A stretch of 64,000 nt of DNA, taken from NCBI GenBank assembly GCA_947184155.2, contig CAMXCT020006334.1:871080-935079 (forward strand), in the 5' to 3' direction. How positions within the stretch are numbered: the stretch's first letter is position 1; every line of letters begins with the position of its first letter. The notes below the pieces were generated by a model. That model was not told where the DNA came from. It searched no databases and saw nothing but the letters and a program-made list of their open reading frames with translations. This stretch comes from Cladocopium goreaui (taxonomy: Eukaryota > Sar > Dinophyceae > Suessiales > Symbiodiniaceae). Positions 17,922 through 37,762 of this stretch are shown here, one piece after another. A program made the position numbers and the translations under genes.

Positions 17922-17933
17922 GTAGTGAAATAG
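17922..17933. repeat. 12-bp direct repeat, left copy (putative target-site duplication)
   Basis: GTAGTGAAATAG, identical to 37751-37762 and in the same orientation, just outside related inverted end sequences. This is what a target-site duplication of one large insertion would look like. Confidence 0.55.
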
Positions 17934-18056
17934 CATCAACATTCACAAATGTAGGCTCTCAGGGCCACATTGGGGTTTTAGATGCCTCCGTAGCCCCCAG
18001 AACCAACATTCACAAAAATGAATTTTTGTGATTTTTTAAGAATTCACATGTGAGAT
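17934..18056. repeat. Left terminal repeat of the 19.8-kb block
   Basis: Contains GTAGCCCCCAGAACCAACAT followed by TCACAAAAATG and TTCACATGTGAG. The right end at 37673-37750 carries the same pieces in inverse order and orientation. A related hairpin copy sits inside at 27766-27862. Confidence 0.55.
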
Positions 18057-18070
18057 TTGGGGGGCCAATC

Positions 18071-18278
18071 TTATACCTCCAACAGCCAATCTGCTGCGCA
18101 CAACATCATTTTTTTCACCCCTTTCGGCCGGTAGGTTCGCAACCTAATGAGGAACCGGCCCAGCAAGCGGAGCTCAAGGAGCTTCCTGTGCACCCGCTTC
18201 GCCAAACCTTTGCAGGTTCCGATCATGTCCTCATCCATGTAGGTGTGGTAAAACCTGCAATTGTACCTCGTCCGGAGC
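18071..18278 (-). CDS. Transposase-like protein, last exon
   Basis: Reads RYNCRFYHTYMDEDMIGTCK and then GLAKRVHRKLLELRLLGRFL before a stop at 18071. The Y-x-CRFYHxYxDEDxIG...HRKxLExRxLxR pattern is the C-terminal block I recall from a large dinoflagellate transposase-like family, possibly akin to Plavaka/KDZ-type transposases, though that link is uncertain. DED may be part of an acidic catalytic set; this is inference. Confidence 0.7.
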
Positions 18279-18614
18279 ATCGAAAGGTTCAAGTCACTGA
18301 AGACCTCAGATTTCGATGAAAATCATGGCCCATCATCATGTCAGGATGTCTCAATGCTTCAACATCCTTCTGCCAAAAAAAAACTTTGCCCAAAACAACT
18401 CACTAGATGGGAGAAAGATCAGGAAACACAAAATCAGCTCAAGCAAGATCAAGGCACATGGAACTTTGGCTTCAGAGCCCACTGCAGAATGCCACGGCTC
18501 TGATGCCACTTCGCAAGCGCACGGTAGAGCTTGAGAAACCTAGCAAAGAACACCAACATGTTAACAAATTGATAGTCCGCAAGATTTTGGGATATCTCTT
18601 TGTTGGTTCAGTTT

Positions 18615-18973
18615 GTTGGAAAAGAAAACAAATATGTTTTCCCACCATTTGCATAGAAAAGGAGCTGCAGAGAGGTTCTGTAGATCTCGGAAGCTTCATC
18701 TGCAGTCAGATACCGTTGCGCAGCTTCAACTTGCAGAAACCATCGGCAAATTGCACTGAGAGCTCCATGAGTCAGCAGCAGAACTTCTGATGGTCCAGGG
18801 CCTTCAGAACGCTGACTTTCAGTGATCACCAGGGATGCAACCTTATCCTGAAGGAATGCAACAAGGACCCGGCCAGCATAGGCTTTGATGCGAAGCTCTG
18901 GGTAATCACCCTGAGGTACCACCAGCAGTGCGGCACAGATTGGCTGTTGGTAATGCCTTCGCAGGGAATTCAT
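18615..18973 (-). CDS. Transposase-like protein, exon
   Basis: A roughly 120-residue open segment with no stop. It begins NSLRRHYQQPICAALLVVPQ, passes through YPELRIKAYAGRVLVAFLQD and RWFLQVEAAQRYLTADEASE, and ends near LLFYANGG. The KAxxGRVLxxFLxDKVA block and the following W...R.L...EA helix precede the DED block in the family. A TA microsatellite intron follows on its 5' side. Confidence 0.7.
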
Positions 18974-18999
18974 AATATATATATATATAATTTATATAG

Positions 19000-19760
19000 G
19001 TTTTCCCCAAAAAAAACATGTTCCCTTGTAACCAGGCCAGGGGAAAACACATAAACACAAGTTTTTGACTTTCAGCATGCCGTCCTGATCTTCTTGGCTT
19101 GGCACCACCGGTTAAACTGACGTGTCATACAACTCAGTTGGTCGCTCAAAGTGCCACCACCTGAGTTTCACTATATATATATATATATAAGAGACATCAA
19201 AACATATAAGTTTAACAAAACATGAGGGGACCCTAATATACAACCAAATTTATATTATATATATATTATATATATAACAGAAACAACTTATAAGTTTAAC
19301 AAACATGAGGGGAACCCTAACATTTAACTCAGTTCATATATATATATATAGACAGAAAAACATACAAATTTAACACACATGAGGGTAACCCTAATATATA
19401 TTATTATAACTCAGTTCAAGGCACCGAAAACGTTGTATTCGTTCAACAAGTGGATCGTGCTTGCATTTGTCCATTGCAGAATGCCAAGGTTGACAGTATG
19501 CATGCCTAGGCTGCACCAGATCGACACCACATAGAATTTTCAAGTTGATTTCAAAACGAATCAATAATTGATTTATCTATCAACGCTATAACGTAACATA
19601 TCAACTAATAGTACGACCCAACTCACAAAACCAATGATTCATCAAATCACTGTTGAAATCCAGCCATGTTACTGCACATGCGTACCATTGACGGCACGAA
19701 TCCAGTGACAGCCTCAGCAAAATCTGATGGGTTAAGGTGAAGGGACCTCTTGGGGAAGGA
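19000..19760 (-). other. Introns, with one possible exon at 19690-19770
   Basis: Mostly TA-rich intron. 19160-19410 holds three related about 80-bp units (AACAAACATGAGGGGAACCC / ATATATAT). 19690-19770 may encode LLRLSLDSCRQWYACAVTWL after GAG|G, but another frame is also open. Confidence 0.35.
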
Positions 19761-19844
19761 TTTGTCTTGTGTGTGTTTGTGCTTGTTGCATGACTAAAAG
19801 ACAGCTAGAAAACAAATATAACATAATTCACGTTTTGCTGAATG

Positions 19845-19966
19845 AGAAGCTGCGATCGGATTGACATAGTTCTTCAAGCTGTGCAGAAAAAACTGGGGCA
19901 CAGTCATCTGTGGGAAGTTGATCGCCTCTTCGAACTTTGTGTACCTTGCAGATAGGTCCACAGCTA
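19845..19966 (-). CDS. Transposase-like protein, exon
   Basis: Reads VDLSARYTKFEEAINFPQMT and then VPQFFLHSLKNYVNPI. Order and style fit the family between the GDWKWH exon and the KAYAGRV exon. Confidence 0.5.
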
Positions 19967-20154
19967 AGCTATATTGATCATATATAAAAAAAATATATAT
20001 ATATATATATATATATAATCATATCTTATATATATATTGTCAATTTCTCCACATCTCAACGACTTATTGTTTGGCTCAATTCGCTTAAAATATTAGTAGC
20101 TATATATTTGTATTGTTTCAAACCATATATTCAAAGATCTGCTATGTGGAACCA

Positions 20155-20402
20155 AGATGCTGATAAGGTCCAGGTTTTTTGGTGGCATAACAGGCATGAC
20201 AAAGGTCAAGAGCTTTGTAATGACGTTTGAAATCCCAAATTTCTCGATGCCACTTCCAGTCTCCACGGCACTCTACCAATGCAAAACAGTGTCGAAAAGC
20301 TTTTCCACCTTTGCGTTGACGTTCAGGGTCAAGAGGTGATCCATCTTCCTTTACGGAAGGCCAGCGCCCAACATACGCAGCCTCATCAGCTCGGAGCAGG
20401 TA
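20155..20402 (-). CDS. Transposase-like protein, exon with GDWKWH block
   Basis: A long open exon. It starts near ADEAAYVGRWPSVKEDG, continues PLDPERQRKGGKAFRH and reaches ECRGDWKWHREIWDFKRHYK, then ALDLCHACYATKKPGP. The GDWKWHxExxxFxRHYxxxxxCHxCxA motif is the most diagnostic part of this dinoflagellate family. CHAC would suit a zinc site (inference). Strand is certain: the plus reading has no comparable motif. Confidence 0.78.
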
Positions 20403-20491
20403 CGAGTGTCAGGGAACCCAGTTCAAAATACTGGATGGCATTGCAGCTGTTGGACCCAGATATCGATATACTAGCTAACATTATCTTTAGT

Positions 20492-20651
20492 TGGAACAAG
20501 CTTGGATTCAGGGTATCTAGTTGTAGATTCAAAATGCTCCAAGTCACATTAAGAGACCATGCAGTCACACGTAGTACTGGATCCAAAGTACGTGTACCCA
20601 GTGACAGTTCGTGGCGCAGCGAAAAGAAGACAAATCTCGATAGGTCAGAAC
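20492..20651 (-). CDS. Transposase-like protein, exon
   Basis: After CTACAG|G it reads GSDLSRFVFFSLRHELSLGT, then RTLDPVLRVTAWSLNVTWSI. The hydrophobic PVLRVxxWSLN segment precedes the GDWKWH block in the family. Confidence 0.65.
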
Positions 20652-20814
20652 CTGTAGCCAGGCCATGGGTAGTCCATGTAAACTATGTTTGATGATTGAG
20701 GGACAGGGTTATGTCAATATATATATATATATCTATATATATATATATGATTGTGGAACATATATATCCTCGCTGGGTATATATATAATATCTTAAACTT
20801 AAAAAAAAAAACTG

Positions 20815-21137
20815 ATGGCCGAATTATCATCAAAGAAACTCTCAACATGCTGGAGGACCAGGCTGATCATCATTACAATAAGTTTTGATCCTGCCAGTGT
20901 GTATCGAGCGTCATCACCCGAAAATCCAATTGGATGGTGTTGCTTCTCTTGGCATGCTGGGTGTTCATCCGGTTGAAATTGTTGCCAATGGGACCAAAAC
21001 TCTGAGATATCTCCAGGTTTCCAAGTGATCTTCTCGGTCTCCTTGTGCGCTGGCTGAGGATCATATGCGATGAGGCATGCAACACTGAGGTACCCAAGTC
21101 TGTTGGTGGGGAATGGTGCAGCAAGGATAGTGATCAC
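20815..21137 (-). CDS. Transposase-like protein, exon with GDDAR motif
   Basis: About 100 residues: AAPFPTNRLGYLSVACLIAY ... HWQQFQPDEHPACQEKQHH ... PIGFSGDDARYTLAGSKLIV. The P-x-G-x-x-GDD-x-R-x-T block is typical of the family and may contribute acidic catalytic residues (inference). Confidence 0.7.
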
Positions 21138-21239
21138 TTAAGGCAACCCGTTTGGTAGAAATTGTTATAATAGGTGTTTGTTATGTTTTGTAGGTGTCTG
21201 TAGGTGTATAATATTTATCAGCAATTAATGACCTCAGGC

Positions 21240-21421
21240 AATCCGAATCCAAGCATCCATCAAATAACATAAGAGCTCATGAGGCAGTACCATCGGCACC
21301 CTCATAGTCGATGTAGCCTTCTTATCATCTGAAGACAAATCTTTGATCGGGATCTCAACGAAGTACATTGACTCAGTGGGCCAATGGGTCACAACGAGAC
21401 ACAATTCCACTTCGGCAAGGG
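21240..21421 (-). CDS. Transposase-like protein, exon
   Basis: After GCAG it reads LAEVELCLVVTHWPTESMYF, VEIPIKDLSSDDKKATSTMR, then VPMVLPHELLCYLMDAWIRI. VLPHELxxYL is a family landmark. The 3' end fits a GC donor. Confidence 0.65.
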
Positions 21422-21551
21422 CTGCAGTGAGTGTGAAAAGGAAAATGCGAACAAAATGAAGAAGGTCTGGAATGAGCACAAAAGTACCACAGCAGCCTTC
21501 GATTGAACAAGCTAGACAGCGGTCTTCGGATCATGCGAATACCGCCTATAC

Positions 21552-21660
21552 TGGCAGCCGAGTGGCAAGTGGCAGCTGAAGCGCTCTCACCAAATCCCTC
21601 TCACAGTTGGCAGGGTGCCTCCCACTGGTTCCAATGCGCGCGATCTTCTTTGTCAGCTCG
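21552..21660 (-). CDS. Transposase-like protein, exon
   Basis: Between TTGCAG and a GT donor. Reads ELTKKIARIGTSGRHPANCE, then RDLVRALQLPLATRLP. The (I/L)GxxGxHxxNxxRDLxR signature precedes the VLPHEL exon in the family. Confidence 0.65.
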
Positions 21661-21759
21661 CTGCAATGGCCACCGCTTTCCTTATCGCAATCATGATCTA
21701 GCATCAGCACCATAAAGGTAAATAATTTAAAAGACTGAATTGGTATCAACGATATATGA

Positions 21760-22110
21760 TAATATATATATGTATATGGATTCCGATGAAGTGCAAAATA
21801 TATCTAAGATTATCGATTAAACTAGTATTAGTAACAAATTCATCGGTGGTGTGGGTTTGGAGCAATGTAAGATATCGATATAGATATATATATATATATA
21901 TATGAAGAAATTATAATATATTATATTATATACCGATCGATATAAATAATATATTTTGTAATGTTATACATGTTGAACCTATGTGTTCTGAGCATGAAAT
22001 ATTCTCATCAGCACAGCAATGCCAAACCCATTGTGGTGTTTGTTAAATAACTAATAACTAATATAAACCATATAAACCAATCCCAGGTCTTTTCAATACA
22101 AGTTAAAACA
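21760..22110. other. TA-rich intron
   Basis: Several TATATA tracts; no coding segment. Confidence 0.7.
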
Positions 22111-22285
22111 CTTCATGTGTCAGCACTTTATCACGCATGGGACATGGGGATACTGTTCAGGATCTTAGCTCAGCTCTTTGGCCTCAAAGGCTACACAACC
22201 AAGATTCGACAACACATGCTTGAGCAGCTTCCTGAAGACCAGCTGCTGAAGATGCCTGAGACCACATCCCACTATATCATCAGGT
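22110..22285. other. Exon-like segment, strand unresolved
   Basis: The plus strand reads LYHAWDMGILFRILAQLFGL and beyond, with an AG acceptor and CAG|GTTGAA donor. The minus strand reads DIVGCGLRHLQQLVFRKLLK over the same bases, which would suit the surrounding minus-strand gene. I cannot decide between them. Confidence 0.35.
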
Positions 22286-22417
22286 TGAAATCATCACAAC
22301 CTTAATTAGACCGAAACAAATTTATTGTCGTACAGGTCTGGAGTGAAGTAGTTCAGAATCAATGAACCAGTGAAATAAAATAACAGCCATGCCAACCTGT
22401 TTTAATTTGAAGTCTAC

Positions 22418-22489
22418 CTCATAGCCAAGCCACTCCTTTGCCCAGTGTCGACAGAAGGTGCTCCGCATAGCTTGTATCTGCGACGGAAG
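22418..22489 (-). CDS. Transposase-like protein, upstream exon
   Basis: Between TTCCAG and a GT donor. Reads LPSQIQAMRSTFCRHWAKEW then LGYE (72 nt). This is the first exon I can support for this protein; the start codon was not found. Confidence 0.45.
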
Positions 22490-22532
22490 CTGGAAGGCGA
22501 GACCAGAAGTACAAGTGGTGGATCTCATATAT

Positions 22533-22613
22533 TGACTGCTGATCAGTGATAGGTTCAAATTAAATTCAAAAGTGACTGCTGATCAGTGATAGGTTCAAAT
22601 TAAATTCAAAAGT
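22533..22613. repeat. 40-bp tandem duplication
   Basis: TGACTGCTGATCAGTGATAG plus the following 20 bases occurs twice in direct succession without change. Confidence 0.95.
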
Positions 22614-22999
22614 TTTTTTTTTCCCATGCGTCTCTTCAGGTTTCACGAGATCTCAGGAAACAGGTGCAAATCGAGCGACCTCCACAAGCTGTCACCACTG
22701 CTATGCAATGTCAGTAGACTGCATTGCGCAGTTCCCTTGTCCCGGGGCCGAGGCTAAGAGCTCTTAAACCAGTAAAAAAAAAAAATGGTTCAATGTAGAT
22801 CGATTTAAATACAATTTGATTAAGTGTTTGAAATTTATGTTGAAAATTGTTAAATGGAGATATGTTTCCAACTGGCCTCATCCCAGGTTCCTACCAAGAC
22901 AGTTATATGTACAGGCCCTGCTCGAAATCTAAGCACCACATCTCTCCACATTCATTTAAACAAAACTCATGGCTGCCAGGCGCAGGGTCAACACCCTAG

Positions 23000-23175
23000 T
23001 CACTTGGAGGGTGCTGCTGATCCCTTTGCCTTGGCCTTAGCCTTTGATTTGGCCTTTGGCATCAAACTTTTGACAGTTGCAGCGGCCGATTTGTAAGACG
23101 ACACTGCTGCCACAAGTCCTTGGGTCAATTCAACCAGCGTTGTCTCCTCTGATCCACGCGCCATCGCAGCCTGCA
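23000..23175 (-). CDS. Large element-encoded protein, C-terminal exon
   Basis: Begins after GTTGCAG|G and reads AAMARGSEETTLVELTQGLV, then AAVSSYKSAAATVKSLMPKA, then a Lys/Ala tail (KSKAKAKAKGSAAPSK) and a stop at 23000-23002. A basic tail suggests nucleic-acid binding or a nuclear signal (inference). This ends the gene whose exons run from about 27.4 kb. Confidence 0.65.
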
Positions 23176-23289
23176 ACGACAGAGGATAGACATGTAAAAC
23201 AATAACTTCAGAACATGTGTGGGTTGTTCACTTAAATTGAGGTCACTGAAAGTTGTTTCATTGTTGACTACTAATAATTAGTCAGTACT

Positions 23290-23420
23290 GTATTTGTGAT
23301 GATCAGGTTGTCCCATGCCTCCAATTTGCTACGTTCACCCTCAAGTTTCTTAACGTGGGTCTCAACATCGGACAAAGCTGCAGTCTTCATAGCTTCCGGC
23401 CTAGGCCAGTTCATCTTTCG
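23290..23420 (-). CDS. Same protein, coiled-coil-like exon
   Basis: Reads MNWPRPEAMKTAALSDVETH, then VKKLEGERSKLEAWDNLII. Charged heptad-like pattern; unknown function. Confidence 0.55.
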
Positions 23421-23559
23421 GTGGCTGGCGAATGTGAATCATATATCAACATGAGCATGCAGGGGCCCTCAGACCCAGACACACCAGCTTTGGTGAGCAC
23501 TGGGGCCCAACCTTGGATGACGCAGATTATATGAATATATTCATATATATGTTTATCAT

Positions 23560-23982
23560 TCATTCATGCCAGCCCTCCACATATCAATATCAATACATGT
23601 ATACAATGATGCAGGTAGGTATGACTCTAATTCTTCCAAGAAGCTTTTTCCTTCGAGAATCATGGCAGACGCTTGCTGCATAGCCTCAGATGCTTCGAGC
23701 AGTGGTATGTTTGAAATCACATCTGTAATTCCTGTGTCGCAACTGTTCTCCACACCCAGCATTAACATGATCCCAAGTAACTCCTTTGGCTTGCTGTTCT
23801 GCCGTCTTTGCCTTCGGTGGCCTTTTCGATTCAGCATCTCTGTTCCCTGCGTTTGGCTTGGGCTTGGGGGTTGGTGTCTGAGGTCGATTTGTGTTGCCAG
23901 ATCCACTAGGCGCCGCTGGATCAAGAAGGGTGGGCGTCTGGAACGAGTTGGGCACAACATTCAACGGATTTGTCCTGAGCAA
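23560..23982 (-). CDS. Same protein, exon with a frameshift
   Basis: The first part reads NPLNVVPNSFQTPTLLDPAA, then a Pro/Lys-rich stretch to KTAEQQAK. Protein-like sequence then continues one frame over as ELLGIMLMLGVENSCDTGIT, VISNIPLLEASEAMQQASAM and LEGKSFLEELESYLPA. The frame change lies at about 23780-23800. It is either a real inactivating indel or a base-calling error. Confidence 0.5.
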
Positions 23983-24074
23983 TGCATTAAAATCAACACA
24001 ATGTATGGGGAAATGTTGAGAGACGAGAATTAATTACATAGTTTCAGGCCTATAATATTTTGTGATGCTTATGC

Positions 24075-24230
24075 TGTCTTGCTAGTGATGCTGTGGTAAA
24101 ACTGAGATATGAACATCATGCTGCCAGCATGTGCGTTGTCGATAGCGGCTTCCTTCGCAATCTCAACAGATTGGGTCACCCTTGTCGCTGATGTTTCAGA
24201 CGTAGAGTTCCAGCACAGATACATTTTCAG
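24075..24230 (-). CDS. Same protein, exon
   Basis: Reads ELKMYLCWNSTSETSATRVT, QSVEIAKEAAIDNAHAGSMM, then FISQFYHSITSKTA. Recalled as part of a multicopy dinoflagellate family; function unknown. Confidence 0.5.
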
Positions 24231-24330
24231 CTCCTGATCAGCTCAGTGCAAGGTATGATATATATATATATACCATCGATCATATGTTTGGTGACATTAA
24301 CATGTATTTTGACCATGGTTTCACTGCAAG

Positions 24331-24388
24331 ACAGCTGAGATGGGCACCGGGGCATCAGGGTTCATCTGCCATTGTCCATCCTTTTCCT
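24331..24388 (-). CDS. Same protein, short exon
   Basis: Between TGCAG|G and a TGCAGTGAAA end. Reads EKDGQWQMNPDAPVPISAVL. Confidence 0.4.
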
Positions 24389-24539
24389 GCAGCAAATCAA
24401 GTGGTGTAATAGATCTATATATATATATTTCTATATCTATATATATATATAATATATATATGAATGATATATACAATATATATGTAGTACTACTAGCTAG
24501 TGTAATATATCTATATATATTGAAAAGCATACTCTGAAC

Positions 24540-24655
24540 CCACCCCTGTGGTCTGTCGTGGTTTCCCTTTGTCCTTGGAGCTAATGATTCCATCGACCAA
24601 GGCCAAATTCTGATGGTACTTCTTCAGAAGGTCCTCAGAACACAGTTTCTTTCCT
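24540..24655 (-). CDS. Same protein, exon
   Basis: Reads RKKLCSEDLLKKYHQNLALV, then DGIISSKDKGKPRQT. TA-rich intron on its 3' side. Confidence 0.5.
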
Positions 24656-24865
24656 CAATATTATCCAGTTCATGTCGGCTGTATGTTAACAAGCAATACA
24701 TATATATATATAGTTATTCCCCAAACTGATAGTAATCAGCATTCAAACAAGCAACACAAATAGAACACAACACATGCACCACAACACTGTGACCAACTAG
24801 TGACTTGTATTATTAACTTCTGCAGTGCAATCAAGCTGCGTCACGAGACATCAGTGCATACTCAC

Positions 24866-24967
24866 CTCTGCGTTCATGATCTCTCTCCGCACGAAGACTG
24901 GCCAGCAGTGTGCTGGCACTCCAGTTTTCATTGCATTGACAAAATTCTTCAAACAGCTGCCATCGTT
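24866..24967 (-). CDS. Same protein, exon
   Basis: Between GATGGCAG and GCAGAG|GTGAGTATG. The frame that fits the splice sites reads LFEEFCQCNENWSASTLLAS then LRAERDHERR. I recall this pattern from a dinoflagellate multicopy family. Confidence 0.55.
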
Positions 24968-25069
24968 CTTGGTGGCTCGCTTTGCCACCTCATGGTCAAT
25001 ACATGAAAGCAAAACCACAAGGAAACTGTGCAGCATGAGCAGCTGCTGATGTAGAACCATGTTTGTTCT

Positions 25070-25142
25070 GGAAGTACAACCAATTTATTCAAGGCACCTT
25101 TGGCCTTGATCTCCTTCCATTTGCTTGAAATCTCAGGTGGAC
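25070..25142 (-). CDS. Same protein, exon
   Basis: Reads CPPEISSKWKEIKAKGALNK and joins naturally to LFEEFCQCN of the next exon. Confidence 0.5.
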
Positions 25143-25245
25143 ACTTCTCGCCTCAGATTGCGAATTTACCAAAGCCATGCTGACAACATATCTGTGAACA
25201 AAGTTGCGATGGCAGCAACAAAGAACAAACTATTGATATCGAGGT

Positions 25246-26359
25246 GCTGGTCACCGATCTGTGAAATCGCATGTAGCTGTTCCGTAAAGCAGCCTTTGCT
25301 TCTGCATCATCAGAAGCTGGGCTCTCCGAAGACTGACCACCATCTCCAGGACCAGGCAATGCAGGTGAGGCATGGGCCACGGAAGTCGGGGTTGCAACTT
25401 CTGTTGCTGGCGCAGGGCTCTCCAAAGCTGGTGGTGTTGGCACCAAAGGCTTGACTTCAACATTCCCTGCAGCATCAACAGTGAGGTCAATTGCTGCTGC
25501 AGCATGTGCCGAAGGCTCTCTTGCTGGCTTCGAACTGGCTGTAGAAACAACACTGGAGGTAGACGGAGTGACCAGCTTGACTGATGGGCTAAGTGTCAAG
25601 CCAGCCTTCACTGCAGCATCTGGTGCCATGGGGATCCAAACATCTTGAAGAACACCAGCCAACTCCATCACAACAGAGGTGTGTCCAGGCATTTCCTGGG
25701 GAGCAATGCTACGGTTCAAATCCAAGGTTGTCTTGCGCAGAAGGCAGGCATGAACATCAGACGCCTGGGGCACAAAAGATTTCATCCTTTTGCCATCACT
25801 ACTCGCTTCAGAAGCAGCATCGCTGTTTGATCCACCAACATTTTCCACGTCCTTCTCAGCATTGGGTCCATCCACAGGGACAGGTTCATCAACCTTGTCA
25901 ACAGGCTCGGACTCGTCTGGAAGTCTGTCAGGTTCCTCAGCAATGCCAGCAAACAAAGCTTCTTCGGCAGCTGATGTCTGAGTGGGTCCTGTAGCATCAG
26001 TGCCTTCTTCCACATCAGCAAGGCCAACATGATGGGCATGTGCTTCAACAGATTCTGCAGCAGCAACTTCTGCAGCACCATCAGCAACCAACGCCCCACT
26101 GCCACCTGCTGGAGCAGCAGGTACAGGCGTCACAGGCCGTTTGAATTTGGACCAAAAGTTCCGGTAGGCAGGCACCCACATTCTCTAAATCCTTCTGGGT
26201 TGAGTCAGAGCCATCCACAAGAGGCCGTTTGCAAGATTCACTGGCTGGTGGTGGGGAAGCTGGTGAATGGCCCTGCTGTGACTTGACAAGATTCTCCATA
26301 AAGTCACCCAGGCATGCTGGGTTTGCCAGGAACACCGGGTTCTGCGCCAATTGCATCAT
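25246..26359 (-). CDS. Same protein, large Ala/Pro-rich exon, frameshifted
   Basis: The 5' part (26359-about 26180) reads MMQLAQNPVFLANPACLGDF and on to DSTQKDLENVG. Protein-like sequence then continues in the next frame from AYRNFWSKFKRPVTPVPAAP through an acidic, Ala/Pro/Ser-rich linker of about 290 residues to KAALRNSYMRFHR near 25250. A one-base change at about 26160-26185 separates the two. The low-complexity middle looks disordered; the ends look folded. Unknown function. Confidence 0.55.
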
Positions 26360-26629
26360 CGCATCATGAACCTGAAGGCTGAATGTAAGAAAGAAACACT
26401 CCCTAGCATCAAACCTTCAAGAACTGTGTGAGTACAATGCTGATTGCAATGGCAAAGGTTGACTTGACACAAAAAAGAAACCTATGAAAATTCACAACAG
26501 CAGCTTTGTATTCAATATATACAAAACCAAACATGATCACTGGGTGGCTATATAGTTCGGTATAACCCCCATTATATTCATGTACTGTTAATTCTCTCCC
26601 AGGTATATACCAATTTTATCGAAAGAAAC

Positions 26630-26735
26630 AAGTAGTTTGGCCAAGATGCATTCGGTGGGCAGGCCAATGCAGGCATTGGAACAACCTTCGAGGGCATCGC
26701 TGGCAGAGGCGGCAGCTCTGGAGGGGGCATAGCCT
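26630..26735 (-). CDS. Pro-rich exon
   Basis: Reads MPPPELPPLPAMPSKVVPMP, then ALACPPNASWPNYL. Part of the same minus-strand series. Confidence 0.45.
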
Positions 26736-26944
26736 CGAAGCAGCATGTTGGTCATTAATATAATGTACCCCGCTTGCTATCAGATTGTAGTTTCTTGGAG
26801 TAGCAGCAACACACATCGACCACAATTATCACTGCATGTATTGTCTAAGGGCTATATGTTGAGTATATATATATAGCATTATTTTCAATATATGCATATA
26901 TATATGATATGTTATATTATATAATTGAAGTAGTTATATATAGT

Positions 26945-28599: not shown

Positions 28600-28920
28600 A
28601 GAATATATATATAATATATATATATATATATTTATATTATATATATAGTAATATATACATATATATATACCGCTGAACATACATACATATATATATGTGT
28701 TGACATTCAATATACATTTTTTGGTATATTATTATAGTTAAGTTATACGTACACATATTATATATTATTTTATAATATATATATATTAATAAGATATATA
28801 GTACTGTATATATATATATATACATATTATTATAATTTATAATTAGATTGTAAGTTATATATATATATATATTATTAAATATTATTATATAATATATTAC
28901 TGTATGACGTAAATCATAAT
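28600..28920. repeat. TA-rich microsatellite intron
   Basis: Dense TATATA, ATTATT and TACATA tracts; no coding. Confidence 0.9.
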
Positions 28921-29139
28921 TCCAACTGCCAGGTTGCCATATATTCAATATGACGGCTGGCAATCCACTCAGCAAATAGTTGGGGATATTCAGCTGATCG
29001 TCGAAGAGATGGCCCACCACTCCTGGGTACAAGGGGAAGAAGAAACATACAGTGTGGGCACTGTGAGTCACTATGAAATCGAAAAGAAACCAGTGATAAT
29101 ATCTTCAAAATCCAATCACCTAAGCCCCCCACACTCTGT

Positions 29140-29445
29140 TGTTGCCTGATCTATCGATGTACTTGTTGACCATTTTCACAGTGCTATCACCAGCATAGCA
29201 AGGTAGGGCATCCTTTAAGTCCTTTGACATCTTGGATTCAAGGTTGTCAATCCATTTCCTCAGAGCAAATGAGCAGGCCGCAGGCTGGTTTAGTTCAATC
29301 CAATCCCTGTTAGTGTCCAGACCATGATCCAATTGCAGCAGTACCTTGACATATATCAATATGCGCATATATTGAGCATCCAACGGGCTTCCCAGTAGCC
29401 ACGAAGGTTTAGGACTCTGGTGTCCATACAAGCCCATCCAACTTG
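29140..29445 (-). CDS. Exon, multicopy dinoflagellate family
   Basis: About 100 open residues: PSWMGLYGHQSPKPSWLLGS, then PLDAQYMRILIYVKVLLQLD, then SFALRKWIDNLESKMSKDLK and CYAGDSTVKMVNKYIDRSGN. I recall the (F/W)MGxxGHxxPKPxxLL block as lying downstream of the methyltransferase-like motifs in related proteins; catalytic role unknown. Confidence 0.6.
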
Positions 29446-29947
29446 GTTGTCCGGGATGGTTAAACTGTTACACAAAGCAACACCAACACACAGATCAGCG
29501 CAGAACAGCAGCACTAACTAGAATTGAAGTTTGAGTTCAAAGGTTTTGCATTCATGGCAGACAACTTGATAGTGCTAAATTAAATCAAAACACAATCTTC
29601 GGAAACGAGCTCGTCCGGGTCCATCCCCCATCGCCGCAATGATGTGCTGGACATAGGGGATAACAGCCAGCAAACTCGAGCCCGGCTGTTCTACCTCAGG
29701 TGGGGCAAGAGTGGCTCATTGATGAGGATGCAGACTGCATGGTTCGGAACCCTGGAACCTGAATGATTGTTTATCACTTATACAGTTGGTTCATATTATT
29801 TTACGGGGTGTATATGTATATATATATATATATTATAAACATATATATATGTAATATGGGAATATTAATGATATGCAATATAAGAACAACACTTGCAGTG
29901 CACTCACAGACTTTTTTCATCCACCGTCGAAGCCATATGTTGTGCTG

Positions 29948-31665
29948 TCATGACGGCGAAGTTCGGTTGCCACCCAATCGCATCATGAGTTCTGTGTAGG
30001 GATCCTGCACTTGCACCTCTTCATAGACATCATCTTCCATATCATTGGCATCACGTTGTTCAGCAAATTGCTGAGCAATGACATGACCAGGTGGTGGGCA
30101 CGTCGGGGGGGCTGGAACCTTTTCTGCTTCTGCTCCGGGATGCACTGGGCTGACCCTTGGTGGTACAGGCATGGCCTTGGGCTGTGGTGGAGGCATGGAC
30201 TTGGGCGGTGGCACTACATGTCCTTTTTTGGGTTTCATGGCATCATCAGAGCCACCCTCCTCATCATCATCATCATCTTCACCATTGTCTTTTTGGGAAC
30301 CTTCTGGATTACCGGATTGTCCACATTGTCCATAGTAACCGGCCATCCAGGTTTCCCATTCATTCCCAGTCCATGGACCTGCATTCCATGATTGCCAGTC
30401 CTCAATGGTCCACGGTCCTTGATTCCAGCGTGACCAGTCTTCGGTGCTCCATTGTTCTTCATTGTTGTTAGATGTTGCTGGTCCTCTCCAAGAGACACTT
30501 TCAAAGATGACACCACCTCCATGATGATGGCTATCCTCCTCCTGGTTGTCGGTGTTGTTGGTGTCGTCGTTTCTGTTCCATGGTGGCGGTGATGGCGATG
30601 GATATGGTGTGTCCGGTGGTGCTTCTTTGGGTGGTGGTAATGGTGGTGGTGGTAGAGGAGGCCGAGGTCCAGCTGTCATCGGGATATATGGCATCGGCAC
30701 CCTGATGTAGACAGCGTTTTTCTGAACTCCTTGTCCAAGCGTTGAGGCAATGAAAGAAGGAGGAGGTGTGTCGTAAGTCTTGAAGCCAATATAGCCCGAG
30801 TTGAAGAGGTCGTTGTTCAAGGTCGGAGGCTTCATTCTGGCCTTCAACCATTGAAGTTCCCACGCCTGTCTCTGTACCACAGGTCCGCACCACCAAGACA
30901 AGTGGTTGTGGTGGGGATTCTCAATCCCTTGATGAGGTGGCGTCTCATCCCCCTGCAGTTCCATGGTGGCCTCAGCCTGTGGTGCAGCTGCATGTGCATC
31001 ATCGAATGATGGGCGGCTGCCTGAAGCCAATGGTTTTTCTTCTGCTTCTGCTCCTTCTTTGTCAGGTGGGGTTGGCACTCCATCCACGAAACCAGGCTGA
31101 TCTCTGATCTCTGTTTTTTGCCTCTTGCGTTCTGGTTCAGTCTCATCTTTGTGCTCCTGCTGGCCATCCAGTGTCTCCATATGATGCCCTTGATCCCGAT
31201 CCTGCGTTGAAGGTTGACTCTTGGAGTCTGTGTTGCCCTTCTCCACCTCATTTGTCGAAGATTTACCCTTGGAGCCCTTGTTGCCCTTCTCCACCTCCTT
31301 TGTCGAAGATTGACTCTTGGAGTCGTCCTTGTTGCCCTTCTCCACCTCCTTTGTCGAAGATTGACTCTTGGAGTCCTTGTTGCCCTTCTCCACATCCTTT
31401 GTCGAAGGTTGACTCTTGGAGTCCTTGCTGCCCTTCTCCACGTCTTTTGTCGAAGATCGACTCTTGGAGTCCTGTTTCTCTTTCTCCAATGCATCATCTT
31501 GCACTGAAGCTGGTTTCTGGGAGACCTTTTTGACCTTGTCCTTGTCCTTGCCAACGTTTTTTTTTCCTTGTCCCGTGTTTTCTTTTCCTTTTTCAGTGCC
31601 CCACTAGTACTGCCATGTTTCTTGCCGCCTCTCTGCTGTGAAGGTGATGTTGAGCTCTTTGCCAT
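29948..31665 (-). CDS. Lys-, Pro- and Trp-rich protein with one frameshift
   Basis: ATG at 31665 starts MAKSSTSPSQQRGGKKHGST and a basic stretch. A 9-T run at 31557-31565 (plus strand) breaks the frame. One frame over, Lys-rich sequence continues (KNVGKDKDKVKKVSQKPASV) into six 16-17-residue repeats (DSKSQSSTKEVEKGNK). Then come NLS-like KRQK, a Pro run (LPPPPLPPP), Trp-rich repeats of the type GPWTxEDWxSWNxGPW, an acidic run (NGEDDDDDEEGGSDD) and a stop at 29948, about 570 residues in all. It looks like a disordered nuclear protein. Whether this is its own gene or an internal exon of a longer one is unclear. A hydrophobic stretch upstream of the chosen Met is probably chance. Confidence 0.6.
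31215..31480. repeat. 48-51-bp coding tandem repeat, about 6 copies
   Basis: Plus-strand unit TTGTCGAAGATTGACTCTTG followed by GAGTCCTTGTTGCCCTTCTC. In-frame on the minus strand, it gives the KDVEKGNKDSKSQSST repeats. Confidence 0.9.
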
Positions 31666-32039
31666 GATGCACACTAGTGCACAGCACAGGGTGAACAGTT
31701 TGAAAACACACACCAAAAAAACTGACTAGTTCATGATAGTGTTCATGATAGTGCTGGAGTGTCTGGTTTGCTGGTGCTGATGATGTTGTTGCTGCTATGT
31801 AAACTGTGTATTCTGGTTCAGGCTGATGCTTTCCGATGAATCTAGATATAACATAATGATATTATATATATACTATTTATTGCATGGACCACAGCATGTG
31901 TGCCTTCACACAACCGATGCGCACCCTGATCCCTATAGATTTGATCTGTTCACATGGCTACATGTCCCGCATACACATAGGGGTCAGCAACAGTATATGT
32001 ATCGTTTCAACCGATGTATGTCATGTCCACCCCAGACCC

Positions 32040-32250
32040 TCTTAGCTGCCAAGCTGCCGTGAAGAACACGTTGATAGAAATGCATATCAGCAGTATTAGG
32101 CTGAATCGAGCTATCAGCAGATTGGAAACCTGCACCAGTACTTGGCCTCAGCTCACAACACCAGCTACAATCAATGTAATTATGTTGAGTCCATGCACCG
32201 AATACATAGCAAGAATCAGCACAAGCTTGAGGTATATGGGAACAATAATA
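32040..32250 (-). CDS. Possible exon(s) after the methyltransferase-like block
   Basis: One frame reads LVLILAMYSVHGLNIITLIV, then after GTGCAG|G VSNLLIARFSLILLICISIN. Hydrophobic, possibly the helix that follows the PC motif in the family; boundaries are weak. Confidence 0.3.
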
Positions 32251-32462
32251 TATTGAATCCAAGCCACCTGGATGCCCCATGTAGCACAAGTGCCTATAGT
32301 GGGTCCCCGAGGACATGAAGATGAACCTTAGATGAATTTGTCTTCAGGATACAGTTACAAGTTGTTTGTTATATGCATGTGCAGCAGCTGAAGTAGTGTT
32401 TGTAGTTGTGGCCACACTGCATGTAGGAGGCATGTTACTTTCGCTTGCAACTAAAACAAGAC

Positions 32463-32603
32463 CAAGAAACCCATTGCATGGATGGCCTGCATGAAGAAGT
32501 CCCCCACTCTTGATCCGCAGGCAATCCCTGATAGATACCACCAGCCCCTGTAGCGTAGTAAGGTCATTTTGAGCACCAGGACGATGCTCTTTGTCAAACC
32601 ACT
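32463..32603 (-). CDS. Cytosine-methyltransferase-like exon (PC motif)
   Basis: Reads WFDKEHRPGAQNDLTTLQGL, VVSIRDCLRIKSGGLLHAGH, then PCNGFLG before a GT donor. The acidic FDKEH, D-x-TT-x-x-G and GGLL-x-x-x-x-PCxxF series resembles motifs II-IV of C5-cytosine methyltransferases, with PC as the catalytic loop. Dinoflagellates carry such domains in transposons. Activity cannot be inferred, since motifs VI-X were not identified. Confidence 0.5.
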
Positions 32604-32784
32604 GCCTTGGAAGGGATTGGGCTAGCACTCAAAGCAACAACACCATATCTGATATACATACTATATTCAGATCAACCACACAGAGACCAAGTAAGAACCC
32701 AACGTAGGTCTGCCTCGCCGACCTAAGGATCCAATATATCAATATGAAATTCATGCATACATACATATTGATCATACATATCAT

Positions 32785-32873
32785 GTTGAAGTGGCACTGA
32801 GCAAACCAGGAGCCTGACGGAATTCCTTATAGAGGGTTCCACATCCACTGAACATTTCGTAGAAATCAGTGTC
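32785..32873 (-). CDS. Cytosine-methyltransferase-like exon (FSGCGTL motif)
   Basis: After CTCAG|G it reads DTDFYEMFSGCGTLYKEFRQ, then APGLLSA. F-S-G-x-G-x-L is like the SAM-binding motif I (FxGxG). The next exon to the left carries the PC motif in the expected order. Confidence 0.5.
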
Positions 32874-33139
32874 CTGAGCAGGTGTACCGGTTTTCAAGGT
32901 AAGGTTCAATCTAGATAATTATGCATTCATGCCTGCTTGCTGATGAGTTTCACGGAACAACACTTCTCCATTCAAGGCCGCAGTTTGGCATATCCAGTCA
33001 CAAAGATGCACCCTCAGATCCAATGTTGAAACATTGACATATAAATATGTATATAAATAGGTCATGCAAGGATATTGATAGTCATGTCATCCCAACTGCT
33101 CCTATGATGAAAAGCCTACAGGGTTGTGTGGATTCTGCA

Positions 33140-33295
33140 ACCAAGACGCAAAATAGGAGGACCTCCTAGAAGTAAAATTGTTGCTGCAGCACGTGCGCTG
33201 AGGTTGGCAGGAACCGATGGCCGCCCTTCCATGGCTGCCAGGGCTACCCAGCTACAGTCGATGGGACACTGGTTTAAGTCAGAATCCAGGGTGAC
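33140..33295 (-). CDS. Exon, unknown product
   Basis: Reads LDSDLNQCPIDCSWVALAAM, EGRPSVPANLSARAAATILL, then LGGPPILRLGC. It lies upstream of the FSGCGTL exon and may be part of the same protein. Confidence 0.45.
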
Positions 33296-33439
33296 ATAAT
33301 ATATATATATATATACATAATTATATATATATGTTTAAAAAAATATTCATTCACTTATTATTAATGTATCAAGTACGTTATCATTATATATATATAATAG
33401 TATTATATATATGTGCTCAGATTTTGCCATAAGCTTAAG

Positions 33440-33640
33440 AAATATGGTTAGCAAGTGATGCTTGTGTTTCTTCAGTAGTGTCTATGCGATCTGAATTCAT
33501 CAATGTTGTTTTCAAGGCTGGGGTTGGGCCAGCAGCTTTGAAAGTATCAAGACATCAGGCCATCACTGTACAAGTACAATCACCAGCAGTGTTCATTACT
33601 GGTTCGAAAAACCAACCACGCAATATTGCCACCTGACACT
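33440..33640 (-). CDS. Possible exons, unknown product
   Basis: One segment reads AAGPTPALKTTLMNSDRIDT, another, after CAG|G, VAILRGWFFEPVMNTAGDCT. Both are short and unassigned. Confidence 0.3.
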
Positions 33641-33932
33641 GTTCAACATTTTTTCCCCAAAACATCGACTGCTGCAATCCTAATTGGTCAGCAGCTAAGC
33701 TAAGCTCCAATTCTGACCCAGATCCCAAACGTTCAAACCATGAGATTATATTATTTATATATATATATACCTTTTGAGAATATTTTGAGGAAACAAGTAA
33801 CGATCACTAATCATGCATTCGACTTTGCTTTCCCAGGTCAGTTGCACAACACATCATTGCAGCGTGTGGAAATCACACACTCGTACGCTGGAAAACCTTC
33901 AGCTGCTATGTACTTTGTACTTTCCATTCAAA

Positions 33933-34110
33933 CATTTTTGGTAGCAACTTGCTTTGCAAGGGACCAGCTGTTCTCAATGCCACCACGTTTTTTGAAAGTG
34001 ACCGTGACACCACTAGCACCATTGCAACTCAACCCGGACCCAGCAGGGATTTGCTCAGGAGAGCAGCCATAGATATAGAAGGATTTGGCATGCCACCTCA
34101 GGGAACAGTT
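33933..34110 (-). CDS. Exon, unknown product
   Basis: Reads LRWHAKSFYIYGCSPEQIPA, GSGLSCNGASGVTVTFKKRG, then GIENSWSLAKQVATKNV. With the exon at 34240-34375 (FTLPADEKRCAIGVLL) it forms a small module I recall only vaguely from other dinoflagellate models; function unknown. Confidence 0.5.
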
Positions 34111-34239
34111 ATGTAAGCAGGGTGTTGGTGGTGTTGTATAATGTTGTATAGTCAATGCAGTGCAGTGATGCATCTAAGCTACAGCTGCTCAACTACCAAA
34201 GACCCCTTCCATGATGATGTCACATGTTGTCTAAAGTTT

Positions 34240-34377
34240 AAAGCTGACAAGCAACAACACGCCAATGGCACACCGTTTCTCGTCAGCAGGCAATGTGAAG
34301 GATTTGCGGGATCCATCGAAATCTGCAGGGATAGGGATGCCAGCCTCCTTCAGCAAGGTCTCCTGCAAAGACAATAA
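34240..34377 (-). CDS. Exon, unknown product
   Basis: After TTTGCAG|G it reads ETLLKEAGIPIPADFDGSRK, then SFTLPADEKRCAIGVLL. It precedes the KSFYIYG exon. Confidence 0.5.
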
Positions 34378-34454
34378 ACACAATGAACTTGTTGATACTG
34401 ATGGGGGTCTTAACACCAAGAAATAAAAAAACACATATGTATTTTTGTACACCA

Positions 34455-34857
34455 TCAATCCTGTGCTTTCCAAGCAGTTTTCACTGCTTCGTCGTCTGCT
34501 GCTTTGGCTGCTGTATCTTTTTTAGTTTTACGCTTGCGAGGGCCTCCCTTGTTTGGTGTGGTCTGGTCTTCTGCCTTTCGTTTTGCTGGATCCTCAGTCG
34601 AATCCTCACCTTTGTCCATGGATTCCTTGGAGGGAGTTGCAGGTTGCTTTGCATCACCATCATCCTTGCTGCCTGTGTCATCTGGCTTGTTGTCCTGTGC
34701 AGTGCTGCTGGCTGCTGTGCTTTGCTCTGGTTTCTCTGCATTTTCGGCTTTGGCTGTTTTTTTTCTAGGTCTACCCCTTGCTTTGGGCTTTGGGTCTTCA
34801 GCATTATCTGTTGCATGCTCTGGCTGCTTGCCCCTGGCTCGGATCGCTCTTTTCACC
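34455..34857 (-). CDS. AT-hook exon (Lys/Glu/Ala-rich)
   Basis: After GCACAG|G it reads VKRAIRARGKQPEHATDNAE, then KPKARGRPRKKTAKAENAEK, continuing charged and repetitive to GPRKRKTKKDTAAKAADDEA and AWKAQD. ARGRPRKK is a canonical AT-hook core (GRP in basic context), which binds the minor groove of AT-rich DNA. Together with the many Lys clusters it implies a nuclear DNA-binding role. The antisense frame is a Cys/Phe-rich shadow. Confidence 0.6.
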
Positions 34858-34965
34858 TGTGCAGCTGTGTGCAACCAGACTGTCTCAAGCAGCTTCCATC
34901 AAACACTAATATTATCGATGTACAAACATATATAATGATGTCTGAAGTACATGCTGATCCCACCT

Positions 34966-35735
34966 TGGCCTGAGCCTTGATTAGATCGTCATCTACTCCT
35001 TCAGCTCCACCATCAACAGAAAGACATAGGCTGCTCACTTGCTCCTTCACACAGATGAGGCTTACTTGACAGAATTGTCACTAGAGTCACTAGATGATAT
35101 TATGCGCAGGGTATAAAATTATAATATATATTATATTAATTACAAACATAGTTGCATCGAAGTTGACATATATATATATAAGATTTGTGTAGCCCCCACT
35201 GGAAGTATTAATTAAATAGCAGCGATACCCCACCTCCAGTGACTTGTCCACCGATGTCACCCCACAAAGCAAGGGTTTGGATTCCTCGCCAAGCAAATCA
35301 AATAATGGTTGGCTGAGGCTCCTTAGACATGATGCAGTATGACTAGAAGGCCTTCATGGCCTGCCGGCGATCTTCTGGGACTTCAGGGTGAATATCCTGC
35401 CAGGGAGTGTTAGTTATGTCTTAAGTTGTTTCTTATATATGTTTGTTCTTTTCGGTATTCTGACAAAATGTAATATTCAGCATGACTCAATTCACTGAAT
35501 GCACCTGATTGGGCATCACATCTCCATCAATTGGCAACGTGTCTTGTTGGTCAGGATGAGGAAATAGAACCTCCCAGATCACGAGAATATGAGGACAAAA
35601 TATAGCTAGAGTGATTGTGTTTTTTTTGTGACTGCTTGTTCTCAGTAATATACCTAGCCTTCTTCACCTCGGGCTCCGCAGTGCTTGACATGGACTCTTC
35701 AGAGCTAGCTGCATCCGGCTCCTTCCACACAATAT
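34966..35735 (-). CDS. Exon cluster, unknown protein
   Basis: Short exons on the minus strand with AG|G acceptors: 34966-35065 (VSSLCLSVDGGAEGVDDDLI), 35235-35330 (LRSLSQPLFDLLGEESKPLL), 35345-35398 (DIHPEVPEDRRQAMKAF), 35506-35583 (VIWEVLFPHPDQQDTLPIDG) and 35655-35735 (VWKEPDAASSEESMSSTAEP). They are separated by TA-rich introns. They probably belong to the gene carrying the AT-hook exon; family not recognised. Confidence 0.45.
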
Positions 35736-35829
35736 TAATGTTCTAGTGATTCAAGTGCATCGCAAACCAGCAGAGATATATATATATATATATCAACATA
35801 TTCATATATGATATATATATATATAGTTC

Positions 35830-36580
35830 CACCTGCAGCGCCGCTTGGGCTTCGCATTCGAGACGGCCATCCACATCACCTACCAGGGTAAGCCAGCAGA
35901 TAATATTGAGAAAATCAACTATGTAATAAAACATGTATGCCAGCACATTGTACAAGTACGGTACCTTCACCAGCTTCAGCTAAGGCTGCCCGTATGGTCT
36001 TCTTGATCAGGATCACTGCTTTTCGCCTGGGAAAAAATATCAAAGCTATTAAATTACTATATATATATATATATTGCAACCATGTTTACATACCCCGATA
36101 TAATCAACACATCGATGCCTTGAACCCTCTGATCGTGATGCCAACGTCAGGCCATGGATGGCGAGTCCACGGGCATGTCCAGCAGTGAGGGAAGCCCATC
36201 CCTGCACATTAATGTCAATTGAAATTGAAAACAAAACGCATCTTTTGACAACATCATCGACGAACACAAAACAATCAACATATTGAGTACACACACTCAG
36301 AGAGAACAGGCCTTGACAGCCTTTTTGATGGTTCTCGGTGGAAAGAATCCATATCGCATAGCACATAGGTAAAACACTGCCTCGCAGGATGAGTTACAAA
36401 GCTGCAGAGATGAAGCAAAAACAGTGGTGTCAGTGCTCAGGAGTGGTGAAAGATCATATCAGGGACTAATTTTCCTGCCTTGAACTTTGAAAATGTAGGT
36501 ACTCCAATAGGTGCGAAGGTTGCGAAGAACTCCACAAGAAAGTGCCAGTTGTACTCCAACTTAGTCACAGCAATGTATGT
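35830..36580 (-). CDS. Exon cluster, unknown protein
   Basis: Minus-strand exons: 35830-35885 (VGDVDGRLECEAQAALQ), 35960-36029 (RRKAVILIKKTIRAALAEAG), 36095-36200 (GWASLTAGHARGLAIHGLTL), 36320-36403 (LCNSSCEAVFYLCAMRYGFF then PPRTIKKAVK) and 36468-36580 (YIAVTKLEYNWHFLVEFFAT). These are well-formed protein sequences with Leu/Lys helices but no motif I know. Confidence 0.45.
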
Positions 36581-36754
36581 TTTGTTTGATAATTTTGGCC
36601 CATTCGATGCTTAGCATTTTGTATTCAAGCAATTTATAGTATCTTGGTCGCACAAATCATTGTAATATATATTAAAATTATATAAATATATATATATATT
36701 TTGTATATATGCTGATTGCACAATGCAGCTGGGAACATTGATCTGAGAGTTGCA

Positions 36755-37205
36755 CAGCCTCTACACTCTGGGTCCCATTGGAGTCAAGATCAAAAACCCT
36801 CTTGTCCTGCATCCACAAACTCAGACCCCAATTCAGACACCAATTCAAAATATAGATCTTATCGGTCAACAAATTTTGTAAAGTTATTCACTCGACCCTT
36901 TCTGTAAAACAGTAAAGATTCCACAGTCCTTGGAGTCCCTGATGTCTGCAATCCTGGAAGGTGACCCCTGAAGCCATGCAACCATCACATCCTCCAAGAG
37001 CAACAACATAGGATCCCTTCCATGCCGCTTTACCTGAGAATGAAAACATAAGCAATGAACACGCAAGAAGGTTAGCATATCATTATACTTTAGTTGGCTT
37101 CAGGTGAAAAATGAGAAATGGAAAACCTGCAAACAAGCAGCAAACGGGGCGGCAGCTGCACCCTCATTAGCAAGCACAACCATGGCTTGAAAGCAGCGAC
37201 ACCAC
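36755..37205 (-). CDS. Exon cluster near the right end of the block
   Basis: 36755-36812 (DKRVFDLDSNGTQSVEAVQL), 36888-37033 after CTCAG|G (VKRHGRDPMLLLLEDVMVAW then LQGSPSRIADIRDSKD) and 37120-37205 (FQAMVVLANEGAAAAPFAAC). The rightmost exons supported in the block; a start codon was not identified. Confidence 0.45.
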
Positions 37206-37672
37206 TAAGCCAAAATGACTTTAAGACAGCTTGACAATAATGTTCAGCAATAATATATATTTGAAATCGATTGGTGATCACTGCGCAAGTTCAAGATGCA
37301 GGGCGGGGGGGAGTTGTGCCTTCTATCACAGTCGATCTGACTGAAGTAGCCGGTTCCGGATTCAGATTGAACCGACCTGGGCAACCAATCATGAGGACAT
37401 ACCCACAACACAAGTAACATGCAATCAGCATATATGCTTTAGTTATATACAAGTACTTTGGTTTGAAATTCTGAGCCCGGGGCAAAGAGCTGATGCTCTC
37501 TCCATCACAACATTGGCGTCTTGGGTGAAGAATCATATTGATATGAACATGTTCTGAGTGTTTTTATGTTAAGAATACATGGAAATTGATGTGAATATAT
37601 ATAGTTTATTGATGAAATAAGCTAAATATTGCTAAACATAATATATAATATATATAATTTAATTTATTTTTT

Positions 37673-37750
37673 CACATGTGACTTTCTCTCGTGAATGTAG
37701 CCTCCTGGTGCTACATACCCTTCGTAATTTCCTGGAGCCAACATTGGCAT
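37673..37750. repeat. Right terminal repeat of the 19.8-kb block
   Basis: Contains TTCACATGTGAC, CTCGTGAATGTAGCC and CCTGGTGCTACAT, the inverse of the left end at 17934-18056. Confidence 0.55.
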
Positions 37751-37762
37751 GTAGTGAAATAG
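37751..37762. repeat. 12-bp direct repeat, right copy (putative target-site duplication)
   Basis: GTAGTGAAATAG, identical to 17922-17933. Confidence 0.55.

Follow-up and report, generated by a model that had tools for sequence, protein, structure and literature searches.

Cut-and-paste transposons of eukaryotes are usually a few kb long and carry one or two genes. The subject of the present analysis is a 64,000-nucleotide stretch of the genome of the dinoflagellate Cladocopium goreaui (contig CAMXCT020006334.1, positions 871,080 to 935,079; hereafter the window), in which a giant transposon of about 20 kb and about 50 exons occupies positions 17,907 to 37,783. The closest described systems with respect to build are the EnSpm families of 16-20 kb with 4-5 open reading frames (ORFs) in the red alga Chondrus; EnSpm elements usually have 1-2 ORFs (PMC6431247). 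With respect to cargo, the closest are the DNMT retrotransposons of Symbiodinium (PMC5890265) and the fungal TET/JBP transposons (PMC12730594). For the CMCT clade, target-site duplications of 2-5 bp are described, those of EnSpm being 3 bp, and the ends are mostly CA..TG (CAC..GTG); CMCT transposases have C(2)C and H(3-4)H between the second D and the last E (PMC12730594). The titles and abstract openings of the top-ranked open-licence PubMed Central papers, a scope outside which subscription papers lie, yielded no description of a family such as the one reported here. The word 'transposase' is absent from the main text of a dinoflagellate genome review (PMC11453091).

The assembly, comprising 1.17 Gb in 6202 contigs, was searched with DNA queries taken from the left 3 kb, the right 3 kb and the left 514 bases of the element. 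It contains 172 exact matches (81 + 91) to the dinoflagellate spliced-leader sequence and none to the reversed control, which marks the host as a dinoflagellate. Five further copies with both ends were found, on contigs C335 (20,724 bp), C2519 (19,121 bp), C968 (18,409 bp), C3561 (20,366 bp) and C1799 (18,728 bp), so that the family spans 18.4-20.7 kb, and the flanks of the copies differ. C1799 was added by a pattern search for the ends, and its two ends are the parts examined. C335 is a diverged full copy, the right part of which is also present on contig C5956; C2519, C968 and C3561 are more distant. Two contigs hold partial near-copies: C1456 has the left 14.9 kb, 99.5% identical to the window, and C2226 the right 14.5 kb, 99.2% identical. 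Within the 40 kb examined, C6093 has a left-end fragment of about 540 bp. Similarity among the aligned copies ends at 17,907 and 37,783, the termini of the element. The preliminary description of this DNA, made from its letters, had proposed a very large DNA transposon that contains introns and accessory genes, and had named the presence of other full-length copies in the same genome as the test; these copies exist and the proposal is upheld. The limits and terminal features are as follows.

17907..37783, no strand: complete element, 19,877 bp; termini from alignment with C1456, C2226, C335, C2519, C968 and C3561.
17907..17919, plus strand: left terminal inverted repeat CCCCGAGGATCCA; agrees with the right end at 9/13 positions in the window copy and at 10-11/13 in four others.
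37771..37783, minus strand: right terminal inverted repeat, compared with the left end.
18045..18053, no strand: left subterminal palindrome CACATGTGA, near the left end in 3/5 copies.
37673..37681, no strand: right subterminal palindrome CACATGTGA, near the right end in 4/5 copies.

The ends in the window are short imperfect inverted repeats, CCC[C/A]GAG...GGG, and the pattern CCC[C/A]..GGG is shared by the five other large copies; the repeats pair at 9-11 of 13 positions in five copies. These inverted ends lie outside the 12-bp direct repeat of the preliminary description. Unlike those of EnSpm/CACTA elements, they read CCC..GGG and not CA..TG (PMC12730594). Close to the left end, positions 18121-18285 are 99-100% identical between the window and C335, whole elements being about 62% identical; either gene conversion or strong constraint on the DNA itself would account for this.

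The three bases flanking the element are duplicated in all eight flank pairs, as compared with 4 of 56 mispaired flanks. For flanks of other lengths the agreement is as follows: 2-mers and 4-mers in 0/8 pairs, single bases in 4/8 and 5-mers in 1/8 (C1799). The duplications are ATT in C335, TAT in C2519, AAC in C968, AAT in C3561, ATA in C1799 and ATA in a 3.4-kb relative on contig C371, the two ATA cases being weak as they lie in AT repeats. They are mostly A/T, with no fixed sequence. For the window, both flank pairs were assigned by means of their 3-mers, and the alternative pairing of TAT with TCA fails.

17904..17906, no strand: target-site duplication TAT, left side; its partner is the right flank of C2226.
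37784..37786, no strand: target-site duplication TCA, right side; its partner is the left flank of C1456, in the same 72-bp tandem array.

The TCA pair is independently supported, because the insertion splits one unit of the 72-bp array and the uninterrupted units show the empty site CCTCAGTTTTTG. This array, with its undisturbed insertion sites, flanks the element at window positions 37784-37970 and at C1456:136234-136681. The C2519 element also lies inside a tandem array. Duplications of 3 bp are a likeness to EnSpm/CACTA (PMC12730594). They set the element apart from the Kyakuja/Dileera/Zisupton (KDZ) group, with 7-8 bp (values for Kyakuja and Zisupton, PMC12730594), and from the introners of Symbiodinium microadriaticum, with 4 bp (PMC9860276). 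Dinoflagellate introners are, like the element, flanked by target-site duplications and have terminal inverted repeats; they are non-autonomous (PMC9860276, PMC7789003).

The preliminary description had placed the boundaries at an exact 12-bp direct repeat, which was confirmed at both places, and had taken it for the target-site duplication.

17922..17933, plus strand: left copy of the subterminal direct repeat GTAGTGAAATAG, the 12-mer of the preliminary description, exact match.
37751..37762, plus strand: right copy of GTAGTGAAATAG, exact match.

Within the window GTAGTGAAATAG occurs at these two places only. The pair alone is weak proof, because the window has 170 non-simple 12-mers that are present exactly twice with more than 5 kb between them; for 72 of these the match does not extend past 12 bp. 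Its meaning comes from the related copies, which bear varied forms of it at the same two places; a chance match was rejected. Similarity among the copies continues outward from GTAGTGAAATAG for another 15 bp at the left end and 21 bp at the right end, and GTAGTGAAATAG is thus the family's subterminal direct repeat, situated inside both ends. That the exact 12-mer bounds the transposon as a 12-bp duplication is refuted by the copies: they have similar sequence equally far in from their own ends, and the 3-bp duplications sit outside it. The empty allele that had been predicted, CCAGC-GTAGTGAAATAG-TGCTGAC, is likewise not expected, as those letters belong to the element. In seven elements the left and right 12-mers agree at 12, 10, 10, 11, 9, 12 and 12 of 12 positions (mean 10.9), as compared with 9.5 between ends of different elements. 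This excess hints that the two ends co-vary; it is small, and the copies are related. Subterminal repeated motifs are also a feature of CACTA elements.

The window copy joins halves of two insertions, as the differing sites and the flank duplications together indicate, with the left flank duplicated as TAT and the right flank as TCA. To the right of about 27,763 the window has the C1456 base at 16 of 18 differing sites and the C2226 base at none. Between 23,880 and 27,530 the signal is not clean: of 21 differing sites, the window shares 10 with C2226, 8 with C1456 and 3 with neither. The switch from one transposon copy to the other falls at about 27530-27763, near the central non-coding block described below. 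An assembly switch is favoured, because contigs C1456 and C2226 both terminate inside the element; a genuine exchange between copies is possible.

The conserved reading frames are mostly on the minus strand, in agreement with the one-strand coding noted from the letters, and the transposase-like exons, methyltransferase-like motifs, AT-hook exon and Lys/Pro/Trp-rich ORF listed in the preliminary description are all present. Third-position periodicity is found in many of the conserved blocks, not all.

18074..21704, minus strand: transposase-like module, 11 conserved segments, with motifs GDDA, RGDWKWH, CxxC, MHxVxLG and DED of presumed meaning.
22187..27456, minus strand: middle module including the GGKASHQERW exon, conserved segments; may form the N-terminus of the transposase protein.
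27731..27914, no strand: central non-coding block, resembling a pair of right subterminal regions inverted relative to each other, with flanking repeats of the AAATCACGC type.
28096..33059, minus strand: methyltransferase-like module with motifs FSGxG, HPC and VEQP, without support from hidden Markov models.
29951..31665 (approximately), minus strand: Lys/Pro/Trp-rich ORF with its own ATG, between two methyltransferase-like exons.
33140..37072, minus strand: first module (RWHAKSFY and other exons), conserved segments without assigned function.
34458..34898, minus strand: AT-hook-bearing exon (GRPRK), an ORF and conserved segment.

Fifty conserved segments amount to 9,627 bp, or 48% of the element. 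They are collinear in the copies (50/50 in C335, 49/50 in C968, 49/50 in C2519 and 50/50 in C3561), as chained from matches with E<1, about 4 of 198 lying above 0.01, with no shuffled control. The segment at 27772-27888, which belongs to the central block, is the one non-coding member of the fifty: its stops are conserved, and it is the DNA itself that is conserved. The copies are mostly 40-80% alike in protein. The accessory modules are constrained like the transposase module: between C2519 and C3561, with the exon at 25246-26175 excluded here and from the stop counts, dN/dS is 0.13 for the first, 0.17 for the methyltransferase-like, 0.17 for the middle and 0.14 for the transposase module. 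The AT-hook exon has a value of 0.34 and the Lys/Pro/Trp-rich ORF one of 0.45. Against the window, pN/pS is 0.28-0.70, synonymous sites being often saturated outside C335. An ATG lies near the start of the Lys/Pro/Trp-rich ORF in the window, C335, C968 and C3561; the stretch of C2519 compared stops short of the start, and the frame in the window is interrupted relative to C335. This ORF probably sits in an intron of the methyltransferase-like gene, because in a relative, P0006, the methyltransferase-like motifs form a contiguous domain in a single uninterrupted frame.

The modules are also linked across the genome. Exons were counted by place, and the counts are lower bounds that include near-identical contigs (C1280/C2220 and C572/C765/C715/C5754), so that independent insertions are fewer than places. 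The transposase exon was found at at least 33 places, none with a stop, the GGKASH exon at at least 23, the methyltransferase-like exon at at least 36, and the RWHAKS exon at at least 14, all 14 with the methyltransferase-like exon. In the expected order and strand and within 25 kb, the 33 transposase places are accompanied by the methyltransferase-like exon at 24, by GGKASH at 20 and by RWHAKS at 11. There are no violations of order or strand, and 0.013 transposase-methyltransferase pairs are expected at random. The linkage persists where the transposase exon is just 34-41% identical to that of the window.

A smaller sister family shares the end design. The left-end pattern, with 3 mismatches allowed, occurs at 16 places as against 2 for the reversed control. 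Eight of the 16 share one identical 26-mer, and none of these eight is among the transposase-exon places. Four of the eight were compared: each has a different flank, and over the 0.9-1.6 kb that follow the left end their identity is 94-99%. In five of the six pairs similarity begins within 3 bases of the left end; in the sixth it begins 16 bases earlier. The family has CCCAAAGGATCC ends and the same direct-repeat arrangement as the large element. The relative that was traced to both ends (C371:116664-120051) is 3,388 bp long, with the same end design; searched with the 50 segments at E 0.01, it gave a single low-complexity match and so lacks the exons of the large element, and it may encode something else. 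The sister family has been recently active. Its 94-99% identity, together with the near-identical copies of the large element (99.2-99.5%), indicates that movement of the element family is recent. Terminal inverted repeats, duplications of fixed length and smaller relatives with the same ends are thus all present, as is general for DDE cut-and-paste elements.

GDDA, RGDWKWH, CxxC and DED are present in the transposase-like module of each of the five copies on which motif invariance was judged, and the candidate catalytic residues are invariant. Its motifs were read by analogy with the CMCT transposases (PMC12730594), by which the D of RGDWKWH would be the second catalytic D. CxxC follows RGDWKWH in 5/5 copies, which, if that D is correctly assigned, would be a further likeness to EnSpm/CACTA (PMC12730594); an H(3-4)H between the second D and the last E was not obvious by eye in the five copies. 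In the methyltransferase-like module FSGxG, HPC and VEQP are invariant in the five copies. They presumably correspond to the motifs FxGxG, PC and E[N/Q] of C5 DNA methyltransferases. The names 'transposase' and 'methyltransferase' rest on motifs and position, as Pfam and the PDB gave no support, and the superfamily and methyltransferase activity are unproven. No Pfam transposase family matched up to E=10 (5 rows from 4 copies, with the window entered twice and C335 absent), or at E=1 for the window protein. PF00145, the C5 DNA methyltransferase family, matched none of five members, again up to E=10. The left 8 kb had no match in a phage collection. A single-sequence protein search matched 0 of 7996 candidates, and profile searches gave 5 and 24 matches to short ORFs without an informative name or Pfam domain.

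The block is very probably, with the explanation taken as a whole, one member of an old, multi-copy family of DNA transposons of about 20 kb in this dinoflagellate. A DDE-type transposase encoded beside the left end would probably recognise the short terminal repeats, and probably also the subterminal motifs GTAG..AAATA and ACATTCAC/CACATGTGA. It would then excise the element and insert it with a 3-bp stagger, giving the 3-bp duplications. The methyltransferase-like protein, the AT-hook exon, the Lys-rich protein and the parts without known relatives are standing components of the element, not passengers; most likely their products protect or regulate it, for example by modifying or coating its DNA. 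The best-studied genus of the group has been reported to methylate most CG sites.

Several observations weigh against this explanation. Transposition itself was not observed, and the window copy is a mosaic. Nine of the 33 transposase-exon places have no methyltransferase-like exon in range, and 2 of the 36 methyltransferase-like places hold one stop. In-frame stops occur in the aligned segments, 1 in C335 (in the AT-hook exon), 2 in C2519 and none in the others, although these segments may overrun exon ends. In H[TC]VxLG, where a catalytic D was first expected, each of the five copies has N or H; this candidate was dropped, and for that reason the second D was placed in RGDWKWH. No protein tested passes a Pfam cut-off, the six exon-joined proteins (a set that takes in the middle module in part and leaves out some exons) included, the sub-threshold matches being HPIP_like (0.0074-0.012), NCH4 (0.012), Med15_N (0.039) and DUF7701 (0.16). 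Two profiles found no credible PDB relative (best E 0.19 for the transposase-like, 0.46 for the methyltransferase-like), and the fold prediction for P0006, a methyltransferase-like relative, was unusable (mean pLDDT 32.6).

Host genes of dinoflagellates are intron-rich, run on one strand and look similar to the block, and some of the places occur as contig pairs with identical scores. That the block is an ordinary set of host genes, duplicated segmentally and not transposed, is nevertheless very improbable: the copies examined all cease to be similar at the same two positions, with 3-bp duplications; no flanks are shared at the ends of C335, C968, C2519 and C3561; and two insertions (C1456/window-right and C2519) lie inside tandem arrays. 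An integrated virus-like element, which the size and the multiple genes recall through their resemblance to Polintons and polinton-like viruses (PMC6431247), is equally improbable in view of some 50 short exons, 3-bp duplications and inverted repeats of 12-13 bp. PolB and capsid genes mark such elements; the exon-joined proteins, which cover part of the segments, gave no Pfam match above the cut-off, with no phage-protein or capsid library run. A retroelement was rejected; the same six proteins, with the same partial coverage, contain no Pfam reverse transcriptase.

The central block raises a further alternative concerning the origin of the transposon. In all five copies it contains a stretch that resembles the right subterminal region and, after it, the inverse of that stretch, surrounded by AAATCACGC-type repeats. 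Its predicted fold as single-stranded DNA surpasses those of all 200 shuffled sequences (z -4.6), and it divides the transposase side from the methyltransferase side. It is read as a control region or binding cluster and is possibly the seam of two fused elements. A tail-to-tail fusion at this point of two ancestral elements, a transposase half and a methyltransferase half, would explain the inverted end-like sequence and the 12 of 36 methyltransferase-like places that have no transposase exon in range. It is rather unlikely, as both halves are found together in all five copies, no search for free half-elements having been made, and the block may merely be the promoter or binding cluster of a second transcription unit. 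Two of the 12 unpaired places are on contigs C2226 and C5956, which break off within the element; the remaining ones may represent degenerate copies, different elements or genes of the host.

Elsewhere in the window, a 1034-aa open frame with an Ala-rich repeat tail lies on the minus strand at 5010-8114 and, by its motifs, resembles a Copia-type retrotransposon polyprotein. Long simple repeats of the ATAC/TACATACAT type at 54000-59400 make the DNA there low in GC and strongly C-skewed.

Unlike EnSpm/CACTA, the element has no Pfam transposase match, about 50 exons, and methyltransferase-like and AT-hook modules. It resembles the fungal TET/JBP transposons (Plavaka, EnSpm, KDZ and others) in that its cargo includes a gene with a presumed role in DNA modification, theirs encoding a dioxygenase and not a methyltransferase-like protein (PMC12730594). 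SymbioLINE and SymbioDIRS are also dinoflagellate mobile elements with methyltransferase cargo, in their case a cytosine methyltransferase and here a methyltransferase-like protein; they are retrotransposons with PF00145, whereas this is a terminal-inverted-repeat element without a match to that family (PMC5890265). On a bolder and tentative reading, the element would be the first known representative of a transposase superfamily of its own, made up of giant transposons of dinoflagellates with CCC..GGG ends, 3-bp duplications and paired subterminal direct repeats. In such a superfamily the methyltransferase-like gene and DNA-coating proteins would be obligate and under selection, the central end-like block would double as a control region, and smaller families without its genes would be driven by it.

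A family of 20-kb, approximately 50-exon elements, the accessory genes of which are collinear and selected like the transposase, indicates that a transposon can be a stable multi-gene system. The family supplies a candidate mobilising enzyme for smaller dinoflagellate repeat families. It also connects mobile DNA with DNA modification in a way that can be put to the test, in organisms whose DNA transposons are little described in the literature searched.

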